From the NCBI GenBank assembly GCA_964036295.1, contig OZ038462.1, forward strand, positions 39,971,680-40,035,679: a stretch of DNA of 64,000 nt, read 5' to 3'. A program made the translations under genes and the position numbers. This document shows positions 3,217 through 54,228 of this stretch, piece by piece (within the stretch, counting starts at the first letter, position 1; every line of letters begins with the position of its first letter). This stretch comes from Plumapathes pennacea (taxonomy: Eukaryota; Cnidaria; Anthozoa; Antipatharia; Myriopathidae). The notes beneath the pieces are model-generated. The model had not been told where the DNA came from, did no database searches, and saw only the letters and a program-made list of their open reading frames with translations.

Positions 3217-3222
3217 TTTATT
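3217..3222 (-). promoter_or_regulatory. Poly(A) signal of ADP-ribosyl cyclase copy A
   Basis: AATAAA on the minus strand, about 105 bases after the predicted stop codon (3328-3330). The same hexamer occurs at 16593-16598 for copy B. Confidence 0.6.
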
Positions 3223-3327
3223 GTAACGCTTTAAAGGACAGGGGCTGATACTTGGCTTTTTCCTATGGAAATCCGACTTTATTGCTGACCAGATAATTCA
3301 CCATGTTTTTGCACGCTGTGAGTCCAC

Positions 3328-3380
3328 TCAGAAAGGATAATATGGTTGTAGCTCTCTGGATAGAAAAAAGTAAATAAATG

Positions 3381-3411
<31 letters not shown>

Positions 3412-6400
3412 AGAAGAAGAAGAAGAAGCTCAACCTTTTATCTTGATTACCCACATGTCAACTGCATCCGAATTCCCAATTACGTGGGACACTAAAGGCT
3501 GGTTCACACGGTAAAGCAAGCGCTAACGCAAGCGCAAAAGAATGAAAACTTTTCCATTCTCGTACGCTTGCGTTTGCATTTGCTTTACAAATTTTATCGT
3601 GTAAACCGGTCGCTTGCGCTTGCGCTTGCGTTAGCGTTTGCGCTTGCTTTACTCGTGTGAACCAGGCTTAAACAAGAACACTAATACTTACGGCGGGTCA
3701 TCTTTACAGCGGTATTTTATTTGTCCGCTGTGTTTATCCTGAATGTCTTTTTGTAATTGTTGCATGGAAGCTCCTTGGCAGTTTTCTCTGCAGAGGAAAA
3801 AATGTTTGTAAAGTAGAACTAAACAATACACAGAGTAAAACAGCATTTGTCGGCATTGATCATGTCGCCTTATTAACACAAACACACAAGACTGAGGCTA
3901 CGTACAGTACACTCTATGCGTTTTTTAAAAATCCATCTTTACCCATCTACACTAATCCTTTGTTTTCGAAGTCGCTCGTCAACTTGTCTTCATTTAAACT
4001 GCATCTGTTCTCAAAGTCTTCACTTTGGTAACCACCGTGTTTGAAAACCTCTATTTTTAAGTCATCGTTTTACTTGTGGACGCATACTAGAATGGTTGCG
4101 TTTCCAAATCAAAACGCATCAGTGTGGACGAGGCCTCACTACAACCACTTCTTTATAGGTAAAGAAAAAGCTATTAGTTTCTGCACATGAGCATGATAGG
4201 GCATTCAAATCTAACCAAAGAGGTGAATTGATGTAATATTTTTCTTACACTACTTTCATCCCCTTTGGATGTACGATCATGGCGTAAACTTCAGGGACTA
4301 CTTTTGGAGATAAATTTGGCATCTCTATTTCGGCAAAGAAACTGGAAAAATAAAGACAAGAAAAACATCAACGTAACACGACAAAGCTGCTTGTTTTACA
4401 TAACAATGCTATATAATTTTAAAGTTTAGCTGTATTAATTAAGGCTGTATAAAAGTGCAGCTATATACTTCATAGGCGTACATAGTACATAGATATACAT
4501 AGGTAGTTACATACATGAAGCATGCATGGTGTGAATTATACGTCATGATCTTACTTTACAGTATTCAAACTGTGTTTTGTGCAATTATATCAGTGTTTGC
4601 CAAAAGACGACTTTGACTCATAGTCGGTCTGAAATGTGAACGAAATCTGAGGGTGTGACGACTGAAATATAAGCTCTCAATGAGTAATAAAACCTAATAC
4701 TGAATAATGTTCATGTTGCAACTGTTGCTAGAAAAATTCATGTCACTTTGAAGCTTGATCATGTAGAGAAACATGGCATGCAGTAAAAGGGTTACAGGAA
4801 TAATGGCTTCTGCGCATGCGCGTCCTATGAGTTCAAGATATAACAGAACTGAATCCGGTCAAATCTTCGGCATTTTTGCCACGTTTTTCAGCATTGCTTA
4901 TCCAATTTGAATAGTTTAGTTGTGGACGAATGATCGAACAAAAATATTTGGCGATTGGTAACTGGATTGAGGCTATTTTTTTCGAAAGGCATTCGAAGTT
5001 CACGGACCAACACATCTAAGGCCGCTCCTGAACCAACGTCATGTAATTCGAGTTTATTTATGCAACAAAATACGTGGGAACTATAAACAAAATCATCCTG
5101 TAGCTAATTTGCCTAAAATAATATTGATCTCCATTGTGCCGAAACTTCTGAATAACAACAAAATAGGCCCGAGAAACATTTCTTGTTGATACACCGTTTT
5201 CAGATTTTTGTACTGCCCGTTACCGTCTATGAGTATGTTTTGTCTGAGAAATAGATTTCCCAAAGTTAGTGCTATTGTTTTTACGACGGGTGAGAAACGT
5301 ACAATATCCAAATTATTGTGCGAAATGTCGCTTTTTCAGTGGTTTAGAAATTTCGTTAGTTTCCGCGACTCAGATTTGCATAAACAGTTGTTTACGAAAC
5401 TTTGAATTCCGATCCACAAGCGCAGAATCGGGACACCGTTCCTTTAATCAGTTTATTTCCAAGAATGATCAACTCCCTAACACTGTTCCTTTAATAAATT
5501 TATTTCCAAGAATGATCAACTCCCTAACTCGGTGCCTAACCCTAACCCTAACCCCAACATTTTTTTTTTTGTTCTCGAGTTCTCGTTTGAGTTGTACAAT
5601 ATTGTTTGATTCTCGCGGGAGCACTATAGAGTTTTATTATAAAGCGCATGGGCTCACAATCCTTGTATAAAACATGTTGGAAGATGTTGGGCTCGTTTAG
5701 CGACTTCCACCGCGTTACCTGTCAGATTGGTAAGGCGCAAATCCCTTTGGATTAGATCCATGGAAGAGGACGTTCGCAGTACCCACAGTGCGTTGGGCAA
5801 GCTGAAAAAATAATTTCCAAATGCAGAGAAAAAACGTATGGCGTATGACGGGAAGGTAATCAATAGTTTTGCAAGTTATCATATAAAGTAACTATATAAC
5901 ATGTATAAAACTGCAAACAATAGGCATACTTAGGCATACTTTATAACTGATATATGGACAGAATACATACACATGGATACTATACATATCAAATACGTAG
6001 TCGCGTACAACACTAAGATATATCATCTTCCATTTTCTCCTTCAGTTTCTCACAAGAAATATATCATAACGTAAATACACCTTATTTTATGGTTTAGCGC
6101 GTAAAGGTGGTGTTAAGGTGGTGTTACACTGGTCGATTTGCAACGATACGATGTTGCGCTAAAAATTGTTCAGGTGTAACACCCCATTGCGAACAATTTT
6201 TCGCGATGTTTGCAGTGCTGCAACGCGTTGCAAGTTTTTGAAAGCGATTCATAAACTTGCAACACCGTTGCGCGAATTTGGAGCAAATCGGCGTTGCAAA
6301 TCGTCGTTGCAAATCGACCAGTATAACACCAGCTTTACACTGGTCGATTTGCAACGACGATTTGCAGCTATACGATGTTGAACTAAAAATCGTTTTTGCG

Positions 6401-9400
6401 AACGATCTTTCGCGATGTTTGCAACGCGTTGCAAGTTTTTGAAAGCGATTCAAAAACTTGCAACTCGCTGCGTAAAATTTGAAGCAAATCGGCGTTGCAA
6501 ATCGACCAGTGTAACACCAGCTTGATACGGGCCGGTATTTTAAGACCTGGCAAAACGAGGACACATTGTGGCGGCAACATTGCTAGCGCGCGCATGTTTC
6601 CCAAATGTTGCCCCGTTTTGCCACGCGCGAAACATTTGTTGCGGACACAAAAATGTTTCTGAAAAACTTCAGAAACATTTGTTGTGTCCACGCGGAACGC
6701 AACAATGTTGCCGCACGTTTTGCCATCCTGGAAACATTGAAGGACACAATGTTGCCGCCACAATGTGTCCTCGTTTTGCCAGGCCATCGAGTGCTCGTAT
6801 TTTTCCGAGCCCCGCCGCGGGGCGAGTAAAATGCTGGCCCGTATTACGCACTAAACCATCGAACGAGGGATATATTATATGCATGACTGGTTTCTTTAGC
6901 CTGTTTTCCATTCTTCTTGTGATATTTTTGCATTCATTTGCCGTGATGAACATTTGAAAGCAGTCAGTGATGACGATTCACGCGGAAGCCAATGTACTGC
7001 CTTTAATGTGATTGGACAAAATCGCCGAAGTTTGACATCCGAGAGCGAACTTGAAAAGCTGGTTTTCGCAAGCAGAAAGAGTGCACGAAATTTGTACTGA
7101 CAGTGTCTAAAAATGTTCTGCATAGTCCGATCGCCACCAAACGGTAGTGCCTAAAGTTTTTCGTCACTGAGTATCGAAAGAGAGGACTCGTCTGAACACC
7201 GTTTCTTCAGGTTCTCTTCAAGTTTCCTTTCACTGCTAAAAGTGAAAGAACCAGTTGCTGAACGTTGCTCCCGAAAGCATGCTTGCTGCTTCGTTGTGGC
7301 TAGAGACAGTTGGCAAGGGTTATAGAACTTTTCTGCAGGCAGAATCAGGAGCTTGTTCTCCCGTCACGTGCTTGCTCAATGTCAAGGACATCAACGTCTG
7401 CTGTTGCTCTGAATGATTTTTGATCTTGTCCTTTACCAGATCGGCGAAGTTGTTTTCGTTTACTTGCCAAAGCCTCACTGGCCTTCGAGAACTGTATGTT
7501 GTTCAGCCAGTTTTATTCTGTTTCCCCTGTTCCCGTAGAAAGCAATCAAAACTCCGAAAAAATGAGGTAAGTGTATCGGGTTCAAATTCTTCGCCGCTTT
7601 GTTTACAAATTTTACCAACAAAATGCGCGAGTCATTGTTCAGTTCACTCGGTGGTATTTTGTCAGTAGGTCTTGTCTCGTTCACTGTTTTAGCCCATTTC
7701 TAAAAATTATTTACGTCCGTTCTCGTCTTTTTTACAGTGTTTTTGTTTTCTGTTCTCTTGTATAAAATGTCGAAATGTCTCGGTCGTCACGAGCAGCGTT
7801 AAATTGGTTTTCTGGTTGGTTTCTGTTGTCATAGTTTTCAGGTTAGTTTCGCACATTGAGTCTGCAGCGTCTGTAAGTAATTCGTCAAAAGTATTACCAC
7901 CGAAAAGTTCGTCAAGTCCTAGCTCGTCGTCGTCGTCGTCAAGAAGTGGAAAGCAGCTCTCGTTGTTCTCGTCGGCCATTTTGGCTTTACGTGACAAGCA
8001 TCTAGAAACTCAAGTCAAACTGGTTTTCTACAGTGTAATACGGATCTATAGTGTGTAATACGCTCCCGTACCGGCACTCTGTTGCGACCTTATATGGTAA
8101 TACTACGACACAGTCATATAATAAGGAGAACTTATTAGCTTTTGTTGCTTAGATCAGTGACAATGGAACAACTATGAATTCTTACACCATCATTCATATA
8201 TTATTTCTTAAAAGCTTGAGAGATTCTATAAGTTGAGCTTGGGGGTGAATAAGTAGGAGAAAGCGAAGTCAAGAATAGGGGTAAAAAAAGACTGCACACG
8301 ACACACGTCATACGACACGAGATACCAACTAACAGCATAGTTTCTTCGGTTCTATCTTCTATCTTGTCTCACCCTCTCAAGTTTTGAAAGTTCAGAACAA
8401 ACACGAGTACACTTTGACAAAACAATAAATAGGTACTATATGTAAATATTAGAGATAGCGGTTTGGCGTAACGGTTAAGCTGCGTTTCGTACAATTAGAG
8501 TAAGGGTTCATGGCGCGCTACCACGTCACTTCCGTTGGTCAGCGTTCGTCACCTTGGCTGTCTAACTTTTCGTAATTCAAGGTGAATCTTTACATTTTGT
8601 GCAAGCCTCGTTTTTCTTGCCCACAACTTTTATCTAGTATCGAGTCCAAGTATTGAGTTTCTTGAGTCTTAAGGTTTTACGAGCGTTACACTGAACTAGA
8701 AAATCTCCACTTGAATTCGCGGTTTTTTGCAATAACCGCTGACTCTAAAGCAAGGTGACCGCGCGGCTGAAAAACGTATTTCCGCTGTGTCTTGTGGTGC
8801 AATCCCCCCTGCATCAGTAGGCCAAAAAGTCTTAAATGTTGGCTCTCTACTCTCTAAACTGGCGGTACCGTCCCCGTGGTAAAAGAACGGCTGAAGACGT
8901 AAAATGAAATCTGGCAATAACCACCCTTGCCAAAGTGACGTAAAAAGTCGTTTTCGGTGGACTGTTAGAGGACGAGACCTGCATCATGGACATTTTTCAA
9001 TGATTATAAACTGACACAGCTAGCACAGCAAGATGACTCTACCAAATGCTTACAGTAACGCCATGTACTCCTATTAAACTGCACTCTATCTTACCATTTT
9101 AGATGCCTGTTCCCAGAATTCGCCATGACTGCCTTTCGGATTGATGTCATCCCCACACTCATTTTCCACTTTATTTGTCACGGGACAGTTTCCGTATTCA
9201 ATGCCATCCTTTGATGAAGTACTACCGCACCACGCTAAGTTGTCTTTGACCAGATACCTAATTTGCAGTAAACAGAACTAAGAATGTTACTTTACTGCCC
9301 ATTTAAAAAAGAACGTCTTCTCTTTGCAACTGGGGAGTTCGCGTAAAATTGACAGAAAAAAGAATTTCTTTTTAAGAACTGAGCTAAAAAGACACTTACC

Positions 9401-10813
9401 CTGTAAGGAGATTTGCAAGGACAACCATTCTCTGCCCCCCGTTAGCGTATCCTGCTGCGATTTCTGGAGTTCCAGACCAAAACAGTGCCTGATGTATGAA
9501 ATTTAACAGTCACTCAAAACAAGGTTTGTTACGGCTTCTTTCGAACTTGGGACTCTTTGAAACAGAGGCATCTGACACCTCTAAAGTAGCAAATATTTTA
9601 CATACATGCTCGTCAACACTCAAAAAAGTTTACCTTATTTTTGGGAATAGGGGGCCCACTCGTTTTCTGAACAAAAGCTTCGTAGGAATCCGGTTTGCAC
9701 GGATCTTTTTTGGCAAAAACCTTATAAAAGGTTTTCCATATATCCTCGCAGTCGGATTGTTTCGCGAAGGCCAGTCCAGCATGCGAGGGAATCGTAAAGT
9801 ATTCGTTACATCGTGTCATGAAGATATTTTGTAGGTTGGGAGTACTCCCAGGTCCTGTGTACCTGACATTAAGAAACCAACGTATAACTGAACTTCCTTG
9901 AGCGACCACCTCTCGTATTTAGCAATCAGTGACCGCATAGTGTCGACTGGTTTCTCAGTTAAATTAGTATATTAGTGAAACCTGTCGTAAGCGACCTCGA
10001 CCTCCTTTGAGGCTCACCTTTTGAGTTTTTTGTATTGTCTGACCTCTGGTAAACGACCATCATATGCTCGCAACAAGCATCAGCAAGGACTAACTTCCTA
10101 GCAGAAACCGGGCCACCGGATAAAACACTAACATAATTATGTAATGTAACGTGCAACAGAAAGGGTTGATTTCTAAAAACTCAAGGTGTTATTCACTCAC
10201 AAAAACTGCGCTATTTAATTGGCACTGGTTGTGGCTTAAAGCTGCCTCCCATGGTGAGAAATTCCCATAAGCGCGACCACCTCCCGTAAGCGACCACCCA
10301 AACGAAGGGTGGTCGCTTACGGAAGGTTCTGTACTGCAACTGAACAACGTTGACAAGCAGCGGTTGAACAAAACTAAACAGAATAGATTCATTGATTCAC
10401 GTGTAGGATTATCAAATCACGTGTAGGGCATTTTCTTTCTTTAATTGCTTCTATATGACCTGCATTATACTATTCAAGGAATTTATAAAATCACAGTGTT
10501 CCTCTTGTGGATTGGAAAACTAAGGCCTGGGTCGAACGCCGTACTTCACATGAGCCGAACTCAATGCAAATGAACAAAAATCCATTGTTTCAGCTAGTTT
10601 GCATTGAATTCGTGGAAGTTTGACTTTTACGTCGAAACATCAGCATGATACATGGTTATTTTTATGCCACAATTATCTGCAAAAATATGTAAATACCAAC
10701 AGTAGAGCTATTTACTTTGTTGCTGCTGCTCTCTTGTGGGCGGATCTAGTGTTCCCTAAATCTCCGATCGCCAGAAGAGCCAAACACATCATCAATATCA
10801 TTTTGGACAGCAT
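3328..10813 (-). CDS. ADP-ribosyl cyclase / CD38-like NAD glycohydrolase, copy A
   Basis: Eight-exon gene. Exons in coding order: 10716-10813, 9634-9862, 9400-9488, 9095-9257, 5719-5801, 4249-4341, 3692-3787, 3328-3355. All introns are GT-AG and phases join without a break, giving 292 aa. Exon 1 encodes a hydrophobic signal peptide (start MLSKMILMMCLALLAIG), so a secreted or luminal protein is expected. Family marks: YTGPGSTPNL, RC..YF, KDPCKP, FWSG (Trp113), GYL..NLAWCG, GEFWEQ (Trp187), FHGSNPK, and FF-x-x-IEMPNL, where Glu227 matches the catalytic Glu (CD38 Glu226, Aplysia Glu179). The usual TLEDTLxGY signature reads VLANLLTGY, so the first acidic residue is Ala134. The mature part has eight Cys and a short C-terminus, suggesting one disulphide of the usual five is lost. 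The family makes cyclic ADP-ribose and/or ADP-ribose from NAD for calcium signalling. The 3.3-kb intron 4 holds MITEs and a recombinase-like relic. The family call is firm; the balance of cyclase to hydrolase activity is unknown. Confidence 0.88.
3378..3430. repeat. Poly(A) and (GAA)n tract
   Basis: A run of A followed by GAA/AGA repeats in the last intron of cyclase copy A. Copy B has the equivalent, with different length, at about 16752-16806. Confidence 0.85.
3497..3667. mobile_element. MITE with GCCTGGTTCACAC ends (copy A)
   Basis: Ends are inverted copies (GGCTGGTTCACACGG at the left, CGTGTGAACCAGGC at the right). The inner arms are rich in AAGCGCTAACGCAAGCGC and its complement. It lies in the last-but-one cyclase intron, just after exon 7. 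The same element is at 16889-17053 in copy B, and a shorter relative with the same terminus is at 52491-52661 in CYFIP. Confidence 0.75.
5434..5555. repeat. 47-bp tandem repeat (2 units) plus short telomere-like tract, copy A
   Basis: Two 47-bp units beginning CACYGTTCCTTTAATMA lie at 5434-5480 and 5481-5527, followed by about three CCCTAA units at 5537-5555. Copy B has three 47-bp units at 18805-18945 followed by the same CCCTAA tract. This is inside cyclase intron 5. Confidence 0.85.
6117..6522. mobile_element. Two tandem MITEs with ACACTGGTCGATTTGCAACG ends (copy A only)
   Basis: Two related elements (about 6117-6330 and 6331-6522), each with inverted termini: TTACACTGGTCGATTTGCAA at the left and its complement at the right. 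Both interiors contain CGCGTTGCAAGTTTTTGAAA. The corresponding place in copy B (about 19535-19545) has neither, so they inserted after duplication or were lost from B. Confidence 0.75.
6546..6783. mobile_element. MITE with 37-bp perfect terminal inverted repeats (copy A only)
   Basis: Begins CCTGGCAAAACGAGGACACA and ends with the exact complement. The arms match perfectly for 37 bases, and further inner palindromes surround AAATGTTTCTGAAAAACTTC. It sits inside another inverted-repeat element whose ACGGGCC / GGCCCGT ends are at about 6525 and 6846. Copy B holds that outer element without this insertion (19523-19625). Confidence 0.8.
7475..7997 (-). pseudogene. Crypton/ZMYM-type recombinase-like relic, copy A
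   Basis: Minus-strand coding remnant in cyclase intron 4. It starts with MADENNESCFPLL and an acidic DDDDDELGLDELFGG stretch, then FIQENRKQK, TRTDVNNF, KWAKTVNETRP and IPPSELNN. This order resembles the N-terminal region of animal ZMYM/KIAA1958-type proteins that derive from Crypton tyrosine-recombinase elements. Copy A contains a stop codon (TAG) between NNF and KWA. Against copy B it also has a 4-base deletion and a 1-base insertion that together restore frame. No recombinase catalytic domain was seen, so this is a truncated remnant. The family call rests on motif memory only. Confidence 0.4.
8340..8517. other. Copy A-specific segment
   Basis: Copy B runs directly across this point (about 21098-21112), so about 170 bases are extra in A or deleted in B. 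It contains GGTTTGGCGTAACGGTTAAG and AGGGTTCATGG, which loosely recall tRNA A and B boxes, but no cloverleaf is convincing. It lies in cyclase intron 4. Confidence 0.4.
9889..10330. mobile_element. Inverted-repeat element with AAGCGACCACC motif, copy A
   Basis: About 440 bp in cyclase intron 1. The left end carries ACTTCCTTGAGCGACCACCT and the right end the near-complement (GGTGGTCGCTTACGGAAGGT). An inner hairpin, CCGTAAGCGACCACCC facing GGGTGGTCGCTTACGG, lies at about 10284-10325. Present in both copies, so it predates the duplication. Confidence 0.6.
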
Positions 10814-12226
10814 CTGCGAAGACAAGAAAGAGTGATGAAGCAGAAAATATAATAAAATACGTTTATGAAGGAGCATCTACTGTTACCTGCTGGTGACTAG
10901 TAATCCTTGAGCAGAAATCGCCAAACTAAGTGAGTCGGCAGACATTCGCCGTTTCAAAGGGATACATTTATCAATTTTTTTTTTTTTGCAATCTGTTAAA
11001 CTAATACGAGAGAGTGGCTTAATTTTGTATACCATCTTTTTGAAGTTAAGCTCGGTTTCAATGGGAACTTTTGTGGGCTTCCGACTAATCTCTTTCGTTA
11101 AGATATTTTTTCGCCCACTTTTTCACTTTAACAATCCACTGATTTTCTGAAACTTTCACATCATGATAGTTTTTGCTGGAGTAAGAAGTTAATTGAGATG
11201 CTAGCGACGCCTGCATAGCAAAGTGAAAGATAAATGGAGAGGGAAGAGGAAAAGCAGAAAGACGCGAGAATCTCAACAATTTATATATGAGATAAAAATG
11301 TGAAGTAGACCGAAGACGAAGAAAGATGAATAGATACAGGTAAATGATAAACAGAGAGGTATCAAGCAAGCAGAGTCAAACTGAATTAACTGACGGACAG
11401 AGACTGAAAGATAGCTGAGAGAAAAGGATGAAATAATTGAGAGAAAGAGACGCATGGTCACAATGAAAATTTACAAAGACAAAGGCAGAAAGCAAAACGA
11501 AACAAAAAGGCAGAGAGAAGTAGAAGGAAACGATGCAATGATTACAGGTTTGAGATATTCTACGTAATACAGAGGCAAAAAGCGACAGAGCGGTTTTAAA
11601 TGCGAAAATCCAAACTCTTTTATCTGGCAAAACTTCAATCTCTGCGTAAGCTGATCAAAACATGTTCTCTTTCATAGCGGAAAAATATGGGCACGTTTTT
11701 GTGATACATTATACTTTACCTTAGTTTGTTTAATTCACAGTCCAAGTGGTTGGATTATTACAGACACCACTGAAGCTCTTTTTGGAGAGGATTAGTTCGG
11801 TAACTAAAGCGCTTTAGTTTCTTTATGGGCAATCGAGGGCCGTTAGTGGGCGTGGATTTTTCTCGCTTGTCTAAGCGCGGTCTAAGAGCACCAGTACTCC
11901 ACCGGTTAAAATGAGCTAAGTGCTTGGACCGATTGCTTGTATTGCCTGAGGGATTTACGCATCCTGACGACGTAGGAGAACAAATACCCGCTAAAGTTTA
12001 GTGCTGATAAACAAGTGAACGCAAAATGTTACATACATGTTGCTCAATCTGCATCATAAGCAACCTTAGAGCAGATCAAAAAATAGGAAATAGTTTTCGA
12101 TTATATGCACAAAAACAGACCCTGCGGAACTTGCAAGAAGTTGAACACAGACGACCTAATTTATTCATATGATTATCACATATACTGTAGGTGAAATACA
12201 TACAAATAAGTTTACACTTTAGAGAT
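10814..12226. promoter_or_regulatory. 5' flank of cyclase copy A, purine-rich, with a block conserved in three copies
   Basis: No gene seen. 11210-11630 is strongly A+G biased on the plus strand. 11820-11955 contains TTAGTGGGCGTGGATTTTTC, CACCAGTACTCCACCGGTTA and AATGAGCTAA. This block is also at 364-500 and 24590-24714 and is better kept than its surroundings in the oldest copy. A promoter or enhancer role is inference. Copy B's equivalent flank is 23518-24977. Confidence 0.45.
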
Positions 12227-12232
12227 TCCATC

Positions 12233-12945
12233 CTATCCACAATCTTGGTCATCGCTAACAACAACTTCTTTCCCGTGGATTGTTTTCAAATGCTTCCTCA
12301 GTGAGCTCGGGTCCGTGTATCTTTTACAACAGCCCTCCACCTTGCAGTGGTACGGTTTGGTCTCGTAGTGAGTTCTTGTGTGCTTAAATCTGTCGCTGGA
12401 ATTGGAATATCTCTTGTTGCAGCCATCAACTGGACATGCGTAAGGTTTTTCTCCAGTGTGTGACCTTTTGTGAATCTTGAGATTCTCCAGCCTGGAGAAA
12501 CTCTTCCCGCAAGATTCATGACAACACTTGTGCGGGCGTTCGCCCGTGTGTGTCCTCATATGAATGAGCATCTTGTAACGTGCATTAAACCCTTTGCCAT
12601 TTCGGGGACAACCATGCCATCGACAGATAAACTCGTCGTGATTTCCGATTTTTATGTGGTATTCACTGACATGACCAACGAGGTCGTCTAAGGACAAGAA
12701 ATGTTGACAGCAGCTCTCCCATTTGCAGGGATGAAGTTGAGAAAGGCTGGAGGGAGATAGTGACGACGTCACAACGCGAGATATTGACGTCACCTGTGCC
12801 TGCGATGTGATCTGCTCATGGTCAAAAATTTGTCCCAGATAGTTTATGCTTGTCTGTTGAGAGGTAACTACAACTCAACCGGTGTCGGAGAGCTCCCAAG
12901 TTTGTTCGCCGTGTGGTTCTCTTGGTTGGCGTCACCTGTGGTAAA
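12233..12945 (-). pseudogene. Truncated GLIS2-like copy: zinc-finger exon only
   Basis: Nearly identical to the last exon of the GLIS2-like gene at 27882-28595, including about 85 bases of its preceding intron. The fragment lies between the end of duplication copy A and the start of copy B, so it was carried along when the duplication broke in that gene's intron. Exon 1 is missing. A single G is deleted near 12874, which gives a TGA in frame just upstream of the fingers, so the open part is 12233-12874. All five C2H2 fingers remain unbroken and identical to the parent. Probably a pseudogene, though a finger-only protein could be made if an upstream start were supplied. Confidence 0.85.
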
Positions 12946-13130
12946 CTGAAGACAACAATCATGAAATTCGTAAGTTCAAAGTTTAAGTAGACTGGTCTGG
13001 AAGGCAAAAATTCTTGACGTCAATCAAAGCAGTTGTTATTGGTTATGCAGGGTAACCGCGCCTAAAGTCGTACGCCAGACTGACTGACTGACAGAATACT
13101 GCACAATGTGCTGGTAAGCTGAAGCCACAG

Positions 13131-13394
13131 TTTTGTACTGACTTGGTGGCCGAGCGGTTTGGGGGTGGTGGACCTGAATCCGTAATGAAGCTCCAAGCCA
13201 GGAGGTCGTGGGTTCAATTCCCACGGCCGGCGTAGTAAGAAGGTTTTTCATCCGAGGAGGCAACTCCAACGGTTTTTCCCTTCTGAACCTGTCTTCTTTC
13301 TACAGGTATTCCACCGGTCGGACATTTGAAACATGAGCCTCTGGCTCGGGGGAATGGGCAACCACTCCCTAATGCTTCGACTTTAAATAAACGA

Positions 13395-13421
<27 letters not shown>
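13131..13421 (+). mobile_element. tRNA-derived SINE
   Basis: About 290 bp beginning TTTTGTACTGACTTGGTGGC. It contains an A-box-like TGGCCGAGCGGTTTGG (13148-13163) and a B-box GGTTCAATTCC (13211-13221), and ends in a (TTTA)n tail. It resembles a Leu/Ser-type tRNA promoter. Copy A at 2002-2012 has the unoccupied site, so the boundaries are exact. ACAG is repeated on both sides (13127-13130, 13422-13425) as a short target duplication. Confidence 0.88.
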
Positions 13422-13425
<4 letters not shown>

Positions 13426-14719
13426 ATTAGGGCACAAAGGCCACAGTGGTAGCGGGCATTACCCCTTGATCTACCAAAACAAAAAACAAAAAAATTGTGA
13501 GCCCAAGTAATAGCAGCCATGGGCAGCTGTTTTGGCCTTTTTGGGCCTCGTCAGCATGGCATAGCTATACTTGGGCTCGGGTTCCCACATTCAGGTTGGA
13601 GTCCCAAGTAAGGCGATATAATGCGATATTAATGCATTAGCGTCGTGATTATTTCCCTCACTTCGTTCAGGGATAATTAATAAAACAAGCAAAAGAGACA
13701 GGTTTGCAATTTTTTTGTGTTTATATGAACGAAAACTAGTTGATTTTTACTAAAACAATTAGATTATTTGCTCGAATCGAGCTCATAATCTAGTTTTTAA
13801 TTATCAAGCAATTTTTTCGTGATACAATTTCAATTTGCGTGAGTGAGATAATATGGTGAGAGAACGACTTAAGGGTTCGTTCGCACTATTAGACTATCGG
13901 CATTTATTCCAGAATAGGCCGATTCCCGTTTCCCAAACGAACGGTTCTTCCAGCAATCCTGCGGCTTTTGCCATTAAAAGGTGTTCTTAAACTTCACAAT
14001 TTGAAGCAGAGTGCAGCATCTGCCCCAAGACAATCTCTTCTTTTTCTCTGGTAGGCTGGAATAAATTTTTGTTCGCGTCTGAAACTCTGCCATATTTGTG
14101 ACATTAGGCAATGAGGATATAATTAGGATATAATTATACTCCATTATAATCTAGTCATTCTGCCTACGTGAGCAGAATAGACGCAACAGTAATTTAATTG
14201 TTGTAGAATATGAATACTTCCACAACGAACTTACAAAAGATTTCGTTCACACTAAAGCCTTTTAGTATAACTGTTGACAATAACTATTTTCATTATACTT
14301 GTTACAAGATTTTTCCATTTTCTATAGGTCATGTTCTATTATTACACTTTAACAACATTAACAATCAAAGCAGCGTTGCCGCTGAAAGCTCGCCCATTCT
14401 TGTTGGTCGATAGGGTTCACGTGGTTTTTGTTTAAAATTTTGTTTTGCTTTTATAGTTAGTGAGACAATATTCATTTAACATCACAGAATCATAGAATCT
14501 GCTCAAACTTTTGCAGAAAGCACTCTAGTTGAGCCCAGAAACTTCCAAAGAAGAATCTTTTAGGTTCACTATGTTTCTACTGTTCCATTGGTGACAAATA
14601 ATTGTACGAAGCCAGGATTGCAGTCATGATGCTGTAAATAGTGCAGTACAAAATAATATAAATCAAAATGAAATTGTTGTGTTATGTTATGTTTATGCAG
14701 TTAGTTGCTCAAACAACAA

Positions 14720-15580
14720 AGATTGTGATTCTTCAGCTCTTGAGGAACGAAAAGCTTATTTGAGAGATTATGAAAGAAAGCAAAGAATGGATCAACAATA
14801 CCTTGCTAAAGAGAAACTAATGAGAATGCATCTGAAACAGAAAAAGTAATCCCAAAGTAAAACAAAAAGAAAATGAAGCTAAGAAAATATACAGAGAAGG
14901 AAACCCAGATCATGTGAAAGAAAAAGACAGACAGGCCAGAAAAAGAAAATGGGAAAAGGACCCAGATCTTGTTAAAGGAAAAGAGACAAGCCAAAAAAAT
15001 AAAGGCAAAAAAAAAACATCCACAACTAGTGAGACTAAAAGAAAAACAGATGAAGCAAAAACAAAGAGTAAACAAATTTAAAACCATTGAGGGCCTTATT
15101 AAACAATTTCATGAAAATATTAAATGTGGACCTGATCAACTTTGGTACAAAGCTGGTGTAATTAGATGTCATGAAAACTCATTCAACTCAGATCTTAATG
15201 TGAACAATTCTGAATGGATTTGTAAACTTGCCATCAAAACATCAAAGCTGGTAAGATGCCACGTTGTGCAAAGGCCAATAAAATGACACTCCCACATAAG
15301 CCACCAGAGTTAGAATTAACTGAGCTTGAGGAGAGACTTCTGGAAACATGGACACACTTTTACAAGAATCAGATGTGTCTGAAGGACATCGAATCTTTAG
15401 CTTTGCACCTGGTGAAGGCCAAAAGCCACTTGGATATACGGCTTATATTTATTGCAGTAAAAATTATTGTTTGCATCACTGGTAAACCTGTGGCTTCTGA
15501 CAACCCTATCCTTTTTATGTTTCGTATTTGGTCGCTGCTTACAAGCTATTTGCAAGCTTTACGTGCCTCGTTAGACAGTG
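14720..15580 (+). pseudogene. Helitron protein N-terminal remnant
   Basis: Plus-strand frames encode basic repeat units such as KEKDRQARKRKWEKDPDLVK. These are followed by DQLWYKAGVIRCHE, then WICK, and (frame-shifted) RCAKANKMTLPHKPPELEL and TELEERLLE. This is the order seen in DUF6570-bearing Helitron proteins (Cys-rich knuckle, then PPEL-x-x-L-x-x-LE-x-x-L). Frameshifts at about 14850 and 15260 break it, and the Rep HUH motif and helicase are absent. Confidence 0.65.
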
Positions 15581-15699
15581 ATTGACACGGGTTTCCTGCT
15601 TTTTACAGCAATCGGCAAGAGCAGATGACTTGGGAACAAATATTTACTTATGTAGCGACGTACCTTTAGCCGCACGTGTTTGTTCTTTCGCAAAAGCCT

Positions 15700-16284
15700 T
15701 CAAACTTTGCGTAAAGGAATACGCGACGATTCTCTCGCTCGCTTCCGATTAATCTTACCCTTCCACGTAAAATAGTGACGCGACCGTCCGTCAAGCATTT
15801 CACGTTCAGATGTTTCTTCCGCAACAAAATCCTTGCCATTCGATCTGGCGACGTGATAGCTTGCGTCAATCACAGCTGTAGAAGCACCCTCGTTTAACGG
15901 CTGCTCTTTGTTTACAAAACAGCACAATGTCTGCATTTCATGATCACAGCATAACAGCCATGTCGTTTCATTAATTTTAGTGTCGCTCAATCGCGGTATA
16001 ATTTCGTAATCACAGCACAATGGCCATGTAATTTCAGTGTCACTGTAGCAGTGCCCTACATTCGTAGAAACACCCAGGCTCAATGGCCAAACAAACTTCG
16101 AATGCTTGACGACCATGACAAACAAGAATGAATTGCAGAAACAACTTCCACAAGAAGCTTCGACGTCTTCTGTTTGAACGTACTGCGTAACTCGACCATG
16201 CCCAAATTTGGAAATTGACAAACTCCTTCTTTGGAAATTCCTTATTTGGAAGTCCATTGTTGACACAGAAGCCTGGAAGGACAC
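15700..16284 (-). CDS. Unrecognised 194-aa open frame inside the Helitron-like insert
   Basis: Open frame on the strand opposite to the Helitron relic. It has an internal imperfect repeat (ITWPLCCDYEI and TTWLLCCDHEM) and a basic C-terminus (GKINRKRARESSRI). No family recognised. Helitrons often pick up pieces of host genes, so a captured host fragment is possible, as is a chance open frame; I could not tell which. Confidence 0.25.
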   Translation of the reverse strand: MSFQASVSTMDFQIRNFQRRSLSISKFGHGRVTQYVQTEDVEASCGSCFCNSFLFVMVVKHSKFVWPLSLGVSTNVGHCYSDTEITWPLCCDYEIIPRLSDTKINETTWLLCCDHEMQTLCCFVNKEQPLNEGASTAVIDASYHVARSNGKDFVAEETSEREMLDGRSRHYFTWKGKINRKRARESSRIPLRKV

Positions 16285-16703
16285 CGTGACAACTTTAAGC
16301 TCGCCCCCACTTCGTGGGGCGAGCTTAAAAACCGGTTTAGGCTGAAATGGTTGGTCCTAACAGAGCACGATCTTCATGCTTTATTTTTCATGTTTTTATC
16401 AATTGTTGAAGATTAGGACACAAATATATGTGGTTACGATAGAAGTTGATGAGTTTGTCAAAATTCATCCAAAGTCAAACGGCCGCCTCGGTGTCACGTA
16501 AAAGCCGCGTTCGTTCTCGCCTTGGTAAATTGTTGGAGACACACGAACCGCTTCAAGTTACGACAAGACATTCAACTGCTTTCAAGCAATACTTTATTGT
16601 AACGCTTTAAAGGGCAGGGGCTGATACGTGGCTTTTTCCTACGGGAATCCGACTTTATTGCTGACCAGATAATTCACCATGTTTCTGCACGCTGTGAGTC
16701 CAC

Positions 16704-19700
16704 TCAGAAAGGATAATATGGTTGTAGCTCTCTGGATAGAAAAAAGTAAATAAATAAATAAAAAAAAAAAAAAAAAAAAAAAAGAGGAAGAAGAAGAAGA
16801 AGAAGAAATATAGCATATTGCTCAACCTTTTATCTTGATTATCCACATGTCGACTGCACCCGAATTCCCAATTACGTGGGACACTAAAGGCTGGTTCACA
16901 CGGTAAAGCAAGCGCTAACGCAAGCGCAGTAGAATGAAAACATTTCCATTCTCGTGCGCTTGCGTTTGCATTTGCTTTACAAATTTTATCGTGTAAACCG
17001 GTCGCTTGCGCTTGCGTTAGCGTTCGCGCTTGCTTTACTCGTGTGAACCAGGCTTAAACAAGAACACTAATACTTACGGCGGGTCATCTTCACAGCGGTA
17101 TTTTATTTGTCCGCCGTGTTTAGCCTGAATGTCTTTTTGTAACTGTTGCATGGAAGCTCCTTGGCAGTTTTCTCTGCAGAGGAAAAAATGTTTGTAAAAT
17201 AGAACCAAACAATACACAGAGTAAAACAGCATTTGTCGGCATTGATCATGTCGCCTTATTAACACAAACACACAAGACTGAGGCTACGTACAGTACACTC
17301 TATGCGTTTTTTTAAAAATCCGTCTTCACCCATCCACACTAATCCTTTGTTTTCGAAGTCGCTCGTCAACTTGTCTTCATTTAAACTGCATCTGTTCTCA
17401 AAGTCTTCACTTTGGTAACCACCGTGTTTGAAAACCTCTATTTTTAAGTCATCGTTTTACTTGTGGAGGCATACTAGAATGGTTCCGTTTCAAAATGAAA
17501 ACGCATCAGTGTGGACGAGGCCTCACTACAACCACTTCTTTATAGGTAAAGAAAAAGCTATTAGTTTCTGCACATGAGCATGATAGGGCATTCAAATCTA
17601 ACCAAAGAGGTGAATTGATGTAATATTTTTCTTACACTACTTTCATCCCCTTTGGATGTACGATCATGGCGTAAACTTCAGGGACTACTTTTGGAGATAA
17701 ATTTGGCATCTCTATGTCGCCAAAGAAACTGGAAAAATAAAGGCAAGAAAAATATCAACATAACACGACAAAGCAGCTTGTTTTACACAACAATGCTATA
17801 ATTTTAAAGTTTAGCTGTATTAATTAAGACTGTAAAGTGCAGCTATATATTTCATAGGCGTACATAGTACATAGATATACATAGGTAGTTACATACATGA
17901 AGCATGCATGGTGTGAATTATACGTCATGATCTTACTCTACAGTATTCAAACTGTGTTTTGTGCAATTATATCAGTGTTTGCCAAGAGACGACTTTGACT
18001 CATAGTCGGTCTGAAATGTGAACGAAATCTGAGGGTGTGACGACTGAAATACAAGCTCTCGATGAGTAATAAAACCTAATACTGAATAATGTTCATGTTG
18101 CTGCTGTTGCTAGAAAAAATTCATGTCACTTTGAAGTTTGATCATGCAGAGAAACAGGGCATGCAGTAAAAGGGTTACAGGAATAATGGCTTCTGCGCAT
18201 GCGCGTCCTATGAGTTCAAAATATAACAGAACTGAATCCGGTCAAATCTTCGGCATTTTTGCCAAGTTTTTCAGCATTGCTTATCCAATTTGAATAGTTT
18301 AGTTGTGGACGAGTGATCGGACAAAAATATTTGGCGATTGGTAACTGGATTGAGGCTATTTTTTTCGAAAGGCATTCGAAGTTCACGGACCAACACATCT
18401 AAGGCCGCTCCTGAACCAACGTCATGTAATTCGAGTTTATTTATGCAACAAAATACGTGGGAACTATAAACAAAATCATCCTGTAGCTAATTTGCCTAAA
18501 ATAATATTGATGTCCATTGTGCCGAAACTTCTGAATAACAACAAAATAGGCCCGAAAACATTTCTTGTTGATACACCGTTTTCAGATTTTTGTACTGCCC
18601 CGTTACCGTCTATGAGTATGTTTTGTCTGAGAAATAGATTTCTCAAAGTTAGTGCTATTGTTTTTACGACGGTGAGAAACGTACAATATCCATCGTGCGA
18701 AATGTCGCTTTTTCAGTGGTTTAGAAATTTCGTTAGTTTCCGCGACTCAGATTTGCATAAACAGTTGTTTACGAAACTTTGAATTCCACAAGCGCAGAAT
18801 CGGGACACTGTTCCTTTAATCAATTTATTTCCAAGAATGATCAACTCCCTAACACTGTTCCTTTAATCAATTTATTTCCAAGAATGATCAACTCCCTAAC
18901 ACCGTTCCTTTAATCAATTTATTTCCAAGAATGATCAACTCCCTAACTCGGTGCCTAACCCTAACCCTAACCCCAACAATTTTTTTTTTGCGTTCTCGAG
19001 TTCTCGTTTGACAGTTGTACAATATTGTTTGATTCTCGCGGGAGCATTATAGAGTTTTATTATAAAGCGCATGGGCTCACAATCCTTGTATAAAACATGT
19101 TGGAAGATGTTGGGCTCGTTTTGTAATACCTACTTCCACCGCGTTACCTGTCAGATCGGTAAGGCGCAAATCCCTTTGGATTAGATCCATGGAAGAGGAC
19201 GTTCGCAGTACCCACAGTGCGTTGGGCAAGCTGAAAAAATAATTTCCAAATGCAGAGAAAAACGTATGGCGTATGACGGGAAGGTAATCAATAGTTTTAC
19301 AATTTATCATATAAAGTAACTATATAACATGTATAAAACTGCAAACATGCCATAGGCATACTTAGGCATACTTTATAACTGATATATGGGCAGAATACAT
19401 ACACATGGATACTATACATATCAAATACGTAGTCGCGTACAACACTCCTAAGATATATCATCTTCCATTTTCTCCTTAAGTTTCTGACAAGAAATATATC
19501 ATAACGTAAATACATCTTATTCCGCGATGGTTTAGCGCGTAATTACGGGCCAGTATTTTACGAGTTGCTCGTAAAATGCGAGTAACGAGTAAAATGCCGG
19601 CCCGTATTACGCGCTTAACCATCGAATGAGGGATTTATTATATGACTGGTTTCTTTAGCCTGTTTTCCATTCTTCTTGTGATATTTTTGCATTCATTTGC

Positions 19701-22700
19701 CTTGATGAACATTTTGAAAGCAGTCAGTGATGACGCCGGATTCACGCGGAAGCCAATGTACTGCCTTTAATGTGATTGGACAACATCGACAAAGTTTGAC
19801 ATCCGAGAGCAAACTTGAAAAACTGGTTTTCGCAAGCAGAAAGAGTGCACGAAATTTGTACTGACAGTGTCTAAAAATGTTCTGCATAGTCCGATCGCCA
19901 CCAAACGGTATTGCCTAAAGTTCTTCGTCACTGTTATCGAAAGAGAGAACTCGTCTGAACCGTTTCTTCAGGTTTCCTTTTACTGCCAAAAGCTAAAGAA
20001 TCAGTTGCTGAACGTTGCTCCCGAAAGCATGCTTGCTGCTTCGTTGTGGCTAGAGACAGTTGGCAAGGGTTATAGAACTTTTCTGCCGGCAGAATCAGGA
20101 GCTTGTTCTCCCGTCACGTGCTTGCTCAATGTCAAGGACATCACTGACGTCTGCTGTTGCTCTGAATGCTTGGTCTTGTCCTTTACCAGATCGGCGAAGT
20201 TGTTTTCGTTTACTTGCCAAAGCCTCACTGACCTTCGAGAACTGTATGTTGTTCAGCCAGTTTTATTCTGTTTCCCCTGTTCCCGTAGAAAGCAATCAAA
20301 ACTCCAAAAAAATGAGGTAAGTGTATCGGGTTCAAATTCTTCGCCGCTTTGTTTACAAATTTTACCAACAAAATGCGCGTGTCATTGTTCAGTTTACTCA
20401 GTGGTATTTTCTCAATAGGTCTTGTCTCGTTCACTGTTTTAGCCCATTTCTGAAAATTATTTACGTCCGTTCTCGTCTTTTTTTACAGTGTTTTTGTTTT
20501 CTGTTCTCTTGTATAAATGTTGAAATGTCTCGGTCGTCACGAGTAGTGTTAAATTGGTTTTCTGGTTGGCTTGTGTTGTCATAGTTTTCAGGTTTAATAG
20601 TTTCGCACATCGAGTCTGCAGCGTCTGTAAGTAATTCGTCAAAAGTATTACCACCAAAAAGTTCGTCAAGTCCTAGCTCGTCGTCGTCGTCGTCAAGAAG
20701 TGGAAAGCAGCTCTCGTTGTTCTCATCGGCCATCAGTTTGGCTTTACGTGACAAGCATCTAAAAACTCAAGTCAAACCGGTTTTCTACAGTGTAATACGG
20801 ATCTATAGTGTGTAATACGCTCCCGTACCGGCACTCTTTTGCGACCTTATATGGTAATACTACGACACAGTCATATAATAAGGAGAACTTATTAGCTTTT
20901 GTTGCTTAGATCAGTGACAATGGAACAACTATGAATTCTTACACCATCACTCATATATTATTTCTTAAAAGCTTGAGAGATTCTATAAGTTGAGCTTGGG
21001 GGTGGATAAGTAGGAGAAAGCAAAGTCGAGAATAGGGGTAAAAAAAGGCTGCACACGACACACGTCATACGACACGAGATACCAACTAGCAGCATAGTTT
21101 GTTCAGTTCACGGCGCGACGTCACTTCCGTTGATCAGCGTTCGTCGCCGTGGCTGTCTAACTTCTCATAATCCAAGGTTGGAATTTCCTCGAATTTTACA
21201 TCTTGTGCAAGCCTCGTTTTTCTTGTGCACAGCTTATACACTGAACTGACTTTTTGTAGAGTATCGAGTCCAAGTATTGAGTTTCTTGCCTAAGTCTTGA
21301 GGTTTTACGAGCGTTACAAACTACAAAAATCTGCACTTGAATTCACGGTTTTGTGCACTAACCGCTGACTCAAAAGAAAGGTGACCGCACGGTTGAAAAC
21401 GTATTTCCGTGGTGTCTTTTCTGGCGCAATCTCCCCTGCATCAGTAGACGTAAAAGGCTTAAATGCTGGCTCTTTACTCTCTGAACTGGCGGTACAGTCC
21501 CCGTGGTAAAAGAACGGCTGAAGAGGTAAAATGAAATCTGGCAGTGACCACCCTTGCCAAAGTGACGTAACTAAAAACGTTTTCCGTGAACTGTTAGAGA
21601 ATAAGACCTGCATCATGGACACTTTTCAATAATTATAAACTGACACAGCTAGCACAGCAAGATGACTCTACTAAATGCTGACAGTAACGCCATCTACTCC
21701 TATTAAACTGTACTCTATCTTACCATTTTAGATGCCTGTTCCCAGAATTCTCCATGACTGCCTTTCGGATTCACAGGCTTACACTCATTTACCTCTTTAT
21801 TTACCAGGGGACAGTTTCCGTATTCAATGCCATCCTTTGATGAAGTACTACCGCACCATACCAAGTTGTCTTTGACCAGATATCTAATTTGCAGTAAACA
21901 GAACTAAGAATGTTACTTTTCTGCCTATTTAAAAAAAAACGTCTTCTCTTAGCAAGATCTTTCTTGCAACTGGGTAGTTTGCGTAAAATTGACAGAAAAA
22001 AGAATTTCTTTTTAAGAACTGAGAAAAACCAAGCAATCTAGCATAGTTACAGACAAAGACAAGCATACGATGATGAATTGATTTTTATTCACACTTACCC
22101 TGTAAGGAGATTTGCAAGGACAACCATTCTCTGCCCCTCGTTAGCGTAATTTGCTGCGATTTCTGGAGTTCCAGACCAAAACAGTGCCTGACGTATGAAA
22201 TTTAACAGTCACTCAATACAAGGTTTGTTACTACTTTTTTCGAACTTGGAGCTCTTTGAAACAGAGGCAGCAGACACCTCTAAAGTAACAAACATTTTAC
22301 ATGCATGCTCGTCAACACTCAAAAAAGTTTACCTTGTTGTTGGGAATAGGGGGCCCGCTCGTTTTGTCAACAAAAGCTTTGTAGGAATTCGGTTTGCAAG
22401 GATCTTTTTTGGCAAAAGTGTCATAAAAGGCTTCCCATATCTTCTGGCAGTCGATTTGTTTCGCGAAGGCCAATCCGGCATGCGAGGGAATCGTAAAGTA
22501 TTCCTGACATCGTTTCATGAAGACATCTGGTAGGTTGGGAGTACTCCCAGGTCCTGTGTACCTGACATCAAAAAACCAACGTATAATTGACCTTCCCTTA
22601 GCGACCACCTCTCGCATTTAGGCAATCAGTAACCGCAAAGTGTCGACTGGTTTCTCAGTCAAATTACTATATTAGTGAAACCTGTCGTAAGCGACCTCCT

Positions 22701-23517
22701 TCGAGGCTCACCTTTTGAGTTTTTTTTATTGTCTGACCTCTGGTAAACAACCATCATATGCTCGCAGCAAGCCCCTTTCTGAGCAAGGACTAACTTCCTA
22801 GCAGAAACCGGGCCGCCGGATAAAACACTAACATAAGTAATGTAACGTGCAACAGAAAGGTTTGATTTCTTAATTAAAACTCAAGGTGTTATTCACTCAC
22901 AAAAACTGCACTATTTAATTGGCACTGGTTGTGGCTTAAAGCTGCCTCCCATGGTGAGAAATTCCCATAAGCGCAACCACCTTCCGTAAGCGACCACTTA
23001 AAGCCGAACGAAGGGTTGTCGCTTACGGGAGGTTCTACTGCAACTGAACAATGTTGGCAAGCAGCGGTTGAAAAAAAATAAACAACCGATTCATTGATTC
23101 ACGTGTAGGATTATCAAATCACGTGTAGAGCATTTTCTTTTTTCATTGCTTCTGTATGACCCTTTTTTCTTCCAATCAAGGAATTCATAAAATCACAGTG
23201 TTTCACTTGTGGATTGGAAAACTAAGGCCTGGGTCGAACGCCGTACTTCACATGAGCCGAACTCAATGCAAATGAGCAAAAATCCATTGTTTCAGCTAGT
23301 TTGCATTGAATTCGTGGAAGTTTGACTTTCGCAGCGTCGAAACATCAGCATGATACTATTGGTTATTTGTAAGACACAATTATCTGCAAAAATATGTAAA
23401 TACCAACGCTAGAACTATTTACTTTGCTGCTGCTCTCTTGTGGGAGGATCGAGTGTTCACCAAATCTCCGATCGCCAGAAGAGCCAAACACATCATCAAT
23501 ATCATTTTGGACAGCAT
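16704..23517 (-). CDS. ADP-ribosyl cyclase / CD38-like NAD glycohydrolase, copy B
   Basis: Exons in coding order: 23423-23517, 22333-22561, 22099-22187, 21724-21883, 19148-19230, 17636-17728, 17078-17173, 16704-16731. Phases and splice sites match copy A; the product is 290 aa with a signal peptide and no visible break. Active-site positions are kept: FWSG Trp, GEFWEQ Trp, and FFGDIEMPNL with its Glu. The TLEDT signature is again replaced by VLANLLTGY, so the change predates the duplication. Exon 2 differs from copy A at about 16 of 76 residues, while exons 3 and 5 differ at one or two each. A one-codon loss in exon 1 (an Ala run) and one in exon 4 explain the shorter length. The gene lies head-to-tail with copy A on the minus strand. 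Its poly(A) signal is at 16593-16598. Confident as a gene; substrate preference unknown. Confidence 0.88.
16889..17053. mobile_element. MITE with GCCTGGTTCACAC ends (copy B)
   Basis: Paralogue of the element at 3497-3667, inherited through the segmental duplication and slightly shorter. Confidence 0.75.
18805..18975. repeat. 47-bp tandem repeat (3 units) plus short telomere-like tract, copy B
   Basis: Three near-identical 47-bp units at 18805-18945, then CCCTAA units. One unit more than copy A, so the array changed length after the duplication. Confidence 0.85.
19523..19625. mobile_element. Short palindromic element (copy B, uninterrupted form)
   Basis: Roughly 45-base arms starting CGATGGTTTAGCGCGTAATT and ending with the near-complement at 19625. 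The copy A counterpart (about 6088-6860) is interrupted by the MITE cluster. Confidence 0.7.
20225..20754 (-). pseudogene. Crypton/ZMYM-type recombinase-like relic, copy B
   Basis: Same remnant in copy B. The position of the copy A stop reads CAG (Gln), and the internal frame reads ETIKPENYDNTS. A one-base A-run difference still separates the first part from the TRTDVNNFQKWAKTVNETRP part. Non-functional as it stands, but less decayed than copy A. Confidence 0.4.
22590..23036. mobile_element. Inverted-repeat element with AAGCGACCACC motif, copy B
   Basis: Paralogue of 9889-10330, with the same ends and inner hairpin. Confidence 0.6.
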
Positions 23518-24977
23518 CTGCAAAGACAAGAAAGAGTGATGAAGCAGAAAATATAATAAAATACGTTTACGAAGGAGCACCTACTGTTACCTGACTAGTA
23601 ATCCTTGAGCAAAAATCGCCAAAACTTAGTGAGTCGGCAGGCATTCGCCGTTTCAAAGGGATACATTTATCAAAATATTTATCTCTAGTTGGGCCCCCGT
23701 AAGATACGGATACGATTTTTTTTTTTTTTTTTTTTTTTGCGATTTGTTAAACTAATACGAGGGAGTGGCTTAATTTTGGATACCATCTTTTTGAAGTTAA
23801 GCTCGGTTTCAATGGGAACTTTTGTGGGCTTCCGACTAATCTCTTTCGTTAAGATATTTTTTCGCCCACCTTTTCACTTTAACAATCCACTGATTTTCTG
23901 AAACTTTCACATCATGATAGTTTTTGCTGGAGTAAGAAGTTAATTGAGATGCTAGCGACGCCTGCATAGCAAAGTGAAAGATAAAAAGGAGAGGGAAGAG
24001 ACAAAGCAGAAAGACGCGAGAATCTCAACAATTTATATATGAGATAAAAATGTGAGTAGACCAAAGACGAAGAAAGATGAATAGATACAGGTAAATGATA
24101 AACAGAGAGGTATCAAGCAAGCATAGTCAAACTGAATTAACTGACGGACAGAGGCTGAAAGATAGCTGAGAGAAAAGGATGAAATTATTGAGAGAAAGAG
24201 ACGCGTGGTCACAATGAAAATTTACAAAGACAAAGACAGAAAGCAAAACGAAACAAAAAGGCAGAGAGAAGTAGAAGGAAACGATGCAATGATTACAGGT
24301 TTGAGATATTCTACGTAATACAGAGGCAAAAAGCGACAGAGCGGTTTTAAATGCGAAAATCCAAACTCTTTTATCTGGCAAAACTTAAATCTCTGCGTAA
24401 GCTGATCAAAACATGTTCTCTGTTATAGCGGAAAAATATGGGCACGTTTTGGTGGTACATTATACTTTACCTTAGTTTGTTTAATTCACAATCCAAGTGG
24501 TTGGGTTATTACAGACACCACCGAAGCTCTTTTTGGAGAGGATTAGTTCGGTAACTGAAGCGCTTTAGTTTCTTTATGGGCAATCGAGGGCCGTTAGTGG
24601 GCGTGGATTTTTCTCGCTTGTCTAAGCGCGGTCTAAGAGCACCAGTACTCCACCGGTTAAAATGAGCTAAGTGCTTGGACCGATTGCTTGTATTGCCTGA
24701 GAGATTTACGCATCCTGACGACGTAGGAGAACAAATACCCGCTAAAGTTCAGTGCTGATAAACAAGTGAACGCAAAATGTTACATACATGTTGCTCAATA
24801 TGCATCATAAGCAACCTTAGAGCAGATCAAAAAATAGGAAATAGTTTTCGATTATATACACAAAAACAGACCCTACGGAACTTGCAAGAAGTTGAATACA
24901 GACGACCTAATTAATTCATGATTATCACATATACTGTAGGTGAAATAGATACAAATAAGTTTACACTTTAGAGATGC

Positions 24978-27877: not shown

Positions 27878-27881
27878 CATC

Positions 27882-35746: not shown

Positions 35747-35927
35747 AAATTTCCACTGGTTTGCCGTGGTGTGGACTCTTATTTACCACGATTTACGTCA
35801 TCACATGGTCAAAATTAGTTGCGGACTCACTCGGCGAAGCGCCTCGTGAGTCCACAACATTTTGACCATGTGATGACGTAAATCGTGGTAAATAAGAGTC
35901 CACACCACGGCAAACCAGTGGAAATTT
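35747..35927. repeat. 181-bp near-perfect hairpin upstream of CYFIP
   Basis: The left arm 35747-35814 is the exact complement of 35860-35927 (68 bp, no mismatch by eye). A second inner arm, GTTGCGGACTCAC facing GTGAGTCCACAAC, extends the fold around GGCGAAGCGCC. A partial third copy of the outer arm (CGTGGTAAATAAGAGTCC) is at 35639-35656. It ends 80 bp before the CYFIP start codon. Confidence 0.9.

Positions 35928-36007: not shown

Positions 36008-54228
<18,221 letters not shown>

Follow-up and report, generated by a model that had tools for sequence, protein, structure and literature searches.

Two complete ADP-ribosyl cyclase genes in tandem

The window analysed here is a 64,000-nt stretch of the Plumapathes pennacea genome (contig OZ038462.1, positions 39,971,680 to 40,035,679), and its minus strand holds two complete eight-exon ADP-ribosyl cyclase (ARC) genes arranged head to tail. 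Copy A (10813-3263) encodes a product of 313 residues and copy B (23517-16639) one of 311 residues; the two proteins are 89% identical. Both gene models were derived from the DNA sequence alone. In copy A, exon 1 (10716-10813) encodes an N-terminal hydrophobic stretch, likely a signal peptide, and is followed by exon 2 (9634-9862), exon 3 (9400-9488; Trp113 and the motif VLANL, with Ala134 at the site of CD38 Glu146), exon 4 (9095-9257; WCG and Trp187), exon 5 (5719-5801), exon 6 (4249-4341; Phe222 and the catalytic Glu227), exon 7 (3692-3787) and exon 8 (3263-3353). The exons of copy B lie, in the same order, at 23423-23517, 22333-22561, 22099-22187 (VLANL motif), 21724-21883, 19148-19230, 17636-17728 (catalytic Glu), 17078-17173 and 16639-16729. 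Exon 8 includes the stop codon in both copies, with an AATAAA starting 41 nt downstream of it. All seven introns of copy A and all seven of copy B have GT...AG ends, the reading frames are open in both, and exon phases match between the copies. An earlier sequence-only reading of this DNA had placed two intact eight-exon cyclase genes, head to tail, within 3328..23517; the models bear out the pair and the right end of that span, but the last exon of copy A runs past the left end to 3263. The 5 kb introns it described are not found, the longest being 3293 bp in copy A and 2493 bp in copy B.

The start codons at 10813 and 23517 are each directly preceded by a pyrimidine-rich stretch and an AG, and this arrangement suggests an unseen 5' untranslated exon upstream of each. 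An extra exon near 9000-8940, in intron 4 of copy A, was considered and dropped, as exon 5801-5719 supplies that strand and aligns in frame with Aplysia cyclase. Both proteins have a hydrophobic N-terminus and no other membrane-like segment; in copy A, mean hydropathy is 1.94 over residues 1-19, compared with a maximum of 1.17 among windows starting after residue 25. This profile suggests a signal peptide and a soluble protein that is either secreted or vesicle-stored; a short signal anchor is also possible.

Family membership without the signature motif

As judged from their predicted proteins, copies A and B are members of the CD38/Aplysia ADP-ribosyl cyclase family, but not canonical ones. 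Both spliced products match Pfam PF02267 (Rib_hydrolayse), the family to which the sequence-only reading had assigned them, with E values of 5.8e-55 (186.7 bits) for copy A and 4.8e-54 (183.7 bits) for copy B against a curated cut-off of 25 bits. The refuting outcome that this reading had named, a spliced protein with no Pfam hit, did not occur. A Protein Data Bank search with copy A matched 41 distinct sequences, ranked with Aplysia cyclase first (E 1.4e-38; 37% identity over the aligned stretch), followed by CD157 and CD38. The catalytic Glu and the two active-site Trp residues are present (Glu227, Trp113 and Trp187 in copy A, and the same columns in copy B). Each copy has eight coding exons, distributed as described for CD38 (PMC9033130), exon 2 carrying the Cys119 site, exon 3 the Lys129 site, exon 4 an active-site Trp and exon 6 the catalytic Glu; the 31-codon length of exon 6 is that given for snake NADase (PMC6368836). 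Nine cysteines follow the N-terminal stretch in each protein, including all eight of those within the aligned Aplysia stretch; the C-terminal pair falls outside the alignment.

What the copies lack is TLEDT, termed the 'signature motif' of the family (PMC3329556) and described as present in all CD38 molecules (PMC6368836). In both copies it reads VLANL, with one of its five residues kept. We retain the family assignment despite the lost motif because the domain score, the catalytic residues and the gene plan all agree with it, and the motif is no condition of the Pfam family. Scans for relatives in contig collections of viruses, bacteria and archaea, which are uninformative for animals, gave no pattern match in one scan and 35 in another of the viral contigs, and 24 and 53 in two scans of the genome contigs, with no match confirmed.

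Active-site residues kept and replaced

Residue numbers for CD38 and Aplysia cyclase are in part those of the cited papers. The residue-by-residue alignment was confined to Aplysia cyclase and human CD38 (four and five alignments, of 41 matched sequences each). In copy A, Trp113 corresponds to CD38 Trp125, Trp187 to Trp189 and Glu227 to the catalytic Glu226, and Asp144 corresponds to Asp155, which is kept with a one-residue gap. Phe222 aligns with Aplysia Phe174 and is of the cyclase type, CD38 having Thr221 there. Within the changed motif, Ala134 occupies the column of CD38 Glu146, the second glutamate of the active site, and Asn135 that of Asp147. In addition, Ala121 replaces the histidine partner of the second glutamate, so that both members of the His-Glu pair are Ala; in bovine CD38, His126 hydrogen-bonds Glu138 (PMC3329556). 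Lys129 is replaced by Pro117, Cys201 by Val, and Cys119 by Lys107 in copy A and by Asn in copy B. Across the columns in which Aplysia cyclase and CD38 agree, copy A keeps 31 of 46 residues and copy B 32 of 46, and the T, E, D and T of TLEDT account for four of the 15 agreed columns lost by copy A.

A frame error is an unlikely source of VLANL, judging from the translated region, because FWSG, the motif and GYL lie in one ungapped reading frame in both copies. A six-frame pattern search of the whole window found no TLED-like peptide, and therefore no alternative exon there supplies the motif. The change is identical in the two copies, and most likely arose before they were duplicated, unless one copy received it from the other.

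Mosaic divergence between the copies

Divergence between copies A and B is uneven along the duplicated DNA. In a tract at 8250-10974, 8.0% of non-coding sites differ (156 of 1960 aligned sites), compared with 2.7% outside it (176 of 6405; Fisher P 8e-22, for a block picked after inspection of the profile), and a likelihood scan places the raised block at 8334-10514. The tract spans exons 2-4 fully, together with their introns, and exon 1 lies at or past its edge. Because the introns are raised too, selection at the protein level alone cannot be its cause. The mosaic would be most simply explained if the tract had been exchanged with a further paralogue, or if the remainder had been homogenised.

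The duplicated units and their surroundings

Self-comparison of the window shows that a unit of ~11 kb at about 1912-13039, carrying copy A, is repeated at 13033-24975, carrying copy B, with insertions private to each unit. The two unit matches share a 7-bp overlap at 13033-13039, beside a truncated zinc-finger segment at the right end of unit 1 (12226-13039) that has a 99.5% match at 27875-28689, further right than unit 2 and past a 2.9 kb stretch. This segment looks like a stray last exon, and 13033-13039 looks like a tandem-duplication breakpoint that would have captured it from a neighbouring zinc-finger gene. A C2H2 zinc-finger exon is recognised at 27882-28625 on the minus strand (Pfam zf-C2H2_15, E 1.3e-17). 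The identity of the zinc-finger segment exceeds the 97.2% of the adjoining duplicated DNA at 10975-12226.

Self-comparison and three-way alignment place a further, diverged counterpart of the DNA upstream of both copies at 209-792 on the minus strand. It is 70% identical to 11655-12226, its sub-part 209-744 is also 70% identical to 24406-24933, and it corresponds to DNA 0.8-1.4 kb upstream of exon 1; it may belong to a third, older unit running off the left end of the window. The sequence-only reading had seen the 5' flank of a third copy at 60-800 and, from this, a probable array. A flank match is there, within narrower limits, but a tblastn search of the window with both proteins yielded no other match with E < 0.45, and so no third coding exon is seen; the pair stands, and more than two copies are possible but unproven, the evidence being one 584-bp flank match at 70%. 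A coding exon within the conserved upstream flank was also considered and rejected, since the left flank does not preserve the 79-residue frame of copies A and B, its own longest frame being 48 residues.

Several insertions lie within the units. The ~2 kb at 14364-16327, private to unit 2, has plus-strand open frames with one sub-threshold DUF6570 match (E 0.0035) and is probably a mobile-element piece. The ~700 bp at 6104-6823, private to unit 1, contains internal repeats (6124-6303 versus 6335-6504, 80%) and looks like a mobile element. In both copies, intron 4 contains an acidic open frame starting MADENNESC (7475-8009, minus strand, with a counterpart near 20225-20766), for which two frames searched in copy A gave no Pfam match at E 0.01; the frame downstream of it is, by eye, reminiscent of a Crypton-type recombinase N-terminus. 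Elsewhere in the window, plus-strand matches at 37277-37630 (Pfam CYRIA-B_Rac1-bd, E 2.2e-6) and 46766-47194 (FragX_IP, E 3.6e-14) look like exons of a CYFIP gene. Tandem repeats occupy 42800-43400, where open frames on the minus strand translate into a repeating unit of about eleven residues, and near-palindromic inverted repeats lie at 35744-35930 (~185 bp, 92%) and 58176-58390 (~210 bp, 86%).

Proposed enzyme function and its alternatives

The Glu146, Cys119/Cys201, Lys129 and Phe174 determinants all point one way, and on this basis we lean towards the view that the pair encodes secreted or vesicle-stored, hydrolysis-poor cyclases that would release cyclic ADP-ribose (cADPR) as a main product. 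Mutation of Glu146 to Ala in CD38 favours cADPR release, as the E516A mutation does in bacterial Tac1 (PMC12356396), and substitutions of CD38 Glu146, Ala among them, are reported to raise cyclase activity up to 9-fold (PMC6368836). Hydrolysis of cADPR is described as requiring Cys119/Cys201 and Lys129 (PMC9033130), and cyclisation as being directed by Phe174 (PMC3686795). A native bacterial enzyme, Nac1, which has Ala at the second-glutamate site and a signal peptide, yields roughly as much cADPR as ADP-ribose (PMC12356396).

In the mechanism we propose, the enzyme would be secreted or stored in vesicles and would attack nicotinamide adenine dinucleotide (NAD) through Glu227; without the second glutamate, the Cys119/Cys201 pair and Lys129, it would hydrolyse cADPR poorly and release it as a main product. 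By the charge argument of Graeff et al. (as cited in PMC5555186), base exchange with nicotinic acid may depend less on acid pH, although Asp155, the other acidic residue named there, is retained. Duplication could increase the dose of enzyme, and exchange with further paralogues could diversify its N-terminal half. A broader reading, which we offer tentatively, is that an animal lineage evolved and tandem-amplified a secreted cyclase in a natural 'E146A' state, possibly a near-committed extracellular or vesicular maker of cADPR that arose independently of Nac1.

Several observations weigh against a hydrolysis-poor cyclase under constraint. Since the bovine counterpart of Glu146, Glu138, bonds the nicotinamide of the substrate (PMC3329556), activity could simply drop in its absence; the measurements we found concern single Glu146 substitutions, none of them removal of the motif in its entirety. 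Each copy has nine cysteines where the family has ten that are conserved (PMC9033130). Over 311 codons, nonsynonymous divergence between the copies (dN) is 0.066 and synonymous divergence (dS) 0.083, placing amino-acid change near the neutral rate, and in exon 2 the values are 0.133 and 0.114, respectively. Columns in which Aplysia cyclase and CD38 agree show no significant depletion of differences between the copies (2/46 versus 7/82, P 0.49), and the absence of stop codons is weak evidence of constraint (P 0.09 under random change). Taken together, these points make relaxed constraint a serious competing explanation. Exon 2 differs at 22 of 181 nonsynonymous sites, compared with 68 of 983 sites in introns 1-2 (P 0.02); because exon 2 is one of eight that could have been picked and rates vary locally, we do not claim positive selection on it.

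On that rival explanation, the pair would be pseudoenzymes that lost the signature motif and are weakened or decaying, a reading that we consider unlikely yet the one to be taken most seriously. It is favoured by dN/dS ratios of ~0.79 overall, 0.82 in exons 1-4 and 0.64 in exons 5-8, and by the loss of TLEDT, of its His partner and, apparently, of one family cysteine. However, each copy has an intact frame, intact intron ends throughout and an intact poly(A) signal, together with the catalytic Glu and the two Trp residues, and the motif change, being identical in the two, is most likely older than the duplication (unless one copy passed it to the other). The unit alignment contains 69 indels in total, 50 of them of a length not divisible by 3, but the two in coding sequence are each 3 bp long and in frame. 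None of the 31 residues common to copy A, Aplysia cyclase and CD38 differs in copy B, where 4.5 differences were expected (P 0.01, from a rough simulation spreading changes evenly over the coding sequence).

It is less probable still that the pair encodes secreted NADases of the snake-venom or CD38 type, which would destroy extracellular NAD rather than signal. A hydrophobic N-terminus with no other membrane-like segment is what would be expected of a soluble secreted enzyme, and snake venom NADases are soluble and likewise encoded by eight-exon genes (PMC6368836). The venom enzymes are described as having Ile at the Phe174 site, an extra Cys121-Cys202 disulfide and an intact TLEDTL (PMC6368836), whereas the copies have the cyclase-type Phe222, no such cysteine pair and VLANL. 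Nor do they have the residues of a CD38-type cyclase/hydrolase, the positions of Cys119, Cys201, Lys129 and Glu146 holding Lys or Asn, Val, Pro and Ala.

An assembly artefact, with two haplotypes of one locus placed in tandem, is very improbable. Alleles of outbred marine animals may differ by as much as the 2.7% seen at non-coding sites beyond the raised tract, but the window contains no N, the unit junction is continuous through the 7-bp overlap beside the truncated zinc-finger segment, divergence is mosaic, and each unit carries insertions that the other lacks.

Whether family members release or destroy cADPR depends in part on the second glutamate. If a hydrolysis-poor cyclase is indeed encoded here, a natural animal enzyme without that residue would be a clean test of the rule; it would bear on cADPR synthesis in invertebrates and could provide a hydrolysis-poor cyclase as a laboratory tool. 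The N-terminal halves of the copies, far more divergent than the rest, offer a natural experiment on paralogue diversification.

Comparison with known systems

The family, its eight-exon plan and the existence of paralogues are already known (PMC9033130, PMC6368836, PMC1949048). Beyond the sequence-only reading, the present analysis adds the replaced TLEDT motif and the mosaic divergence of the copies. Among the matches listed from the open-licence literature, we found no animal member of the family described as having Ala in place of the second glutamate. The sequence-only reading had regarded a multi-copy system as noteworthy; two copies are present, but multiplicity of this kind is not unusual, as the sea urchin is described as having at least three cyclase genes (PMC1949048) and the human CD38 and CD157 genes adjoin (PMC9033130). 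Tandem duplicates make up almost a third of the genes in two corals (PMC10236652), in a paper whose main text has no occurrence of 'adp-ribosyl', 'ribosyl cyclase' or 'cd38'. No title among the matches listed concerned cnidarian, coral or sponge cyclase genes; several papers name both ADP-ribosyl cyclase and hydroids (e.g. PMC5468461), and hydroid activity may be in print, and PMC7563492 and PMC7312350 deal, in the parts available, with sponge activity and channels, not with cnidarian cyclase sequences.

Aplysia cyclase (PDB 3zwm, 1lbe) resembles the copies in its catalytic Glu, two Trp residues and Phe174, in having no Cys at the Cys119/Cys201 positions, and in its signal sequence, a likely feature of the copies, and very similar eight-exon plan (PMC9033130, PMC6368836). 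Unlike it, the copies have VLANL for TLEDT, Ala for His, one extra residue before WCG and apparently one family cysteine fewer. Human CD38 shares the family, the eight-exon plan, Glu226, Trp125 and Trp189, as well as Asp155, kept here with an adjoining one-residue gap. It differs at the positions of Glu146, Asp147, His133, Lys129, Cys119, Cys201 and Thr221, and its cytoplasmic tail and type II anchor have no evident equivalent in the copies. The sea urchin enzyme SpARC4 reportedly has a non-canonical active site, and motif departures in animals may have precedent. By description, the sea urchin ARC family is also similar in having several paralogues in one invertebrate, with the Glu and two Trp residues conserved (PMC1949048). 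Nac1, from Actinophytocola oryzae, is bacterial and has a smaller ARC fold, and the shared Ala would be convergent; yet, as far as its published description allows the comparison, it is like the copies described here in combining a natural Ala at the second-glutamate site with a signal peptide, likely in the copies (PMC12356396).

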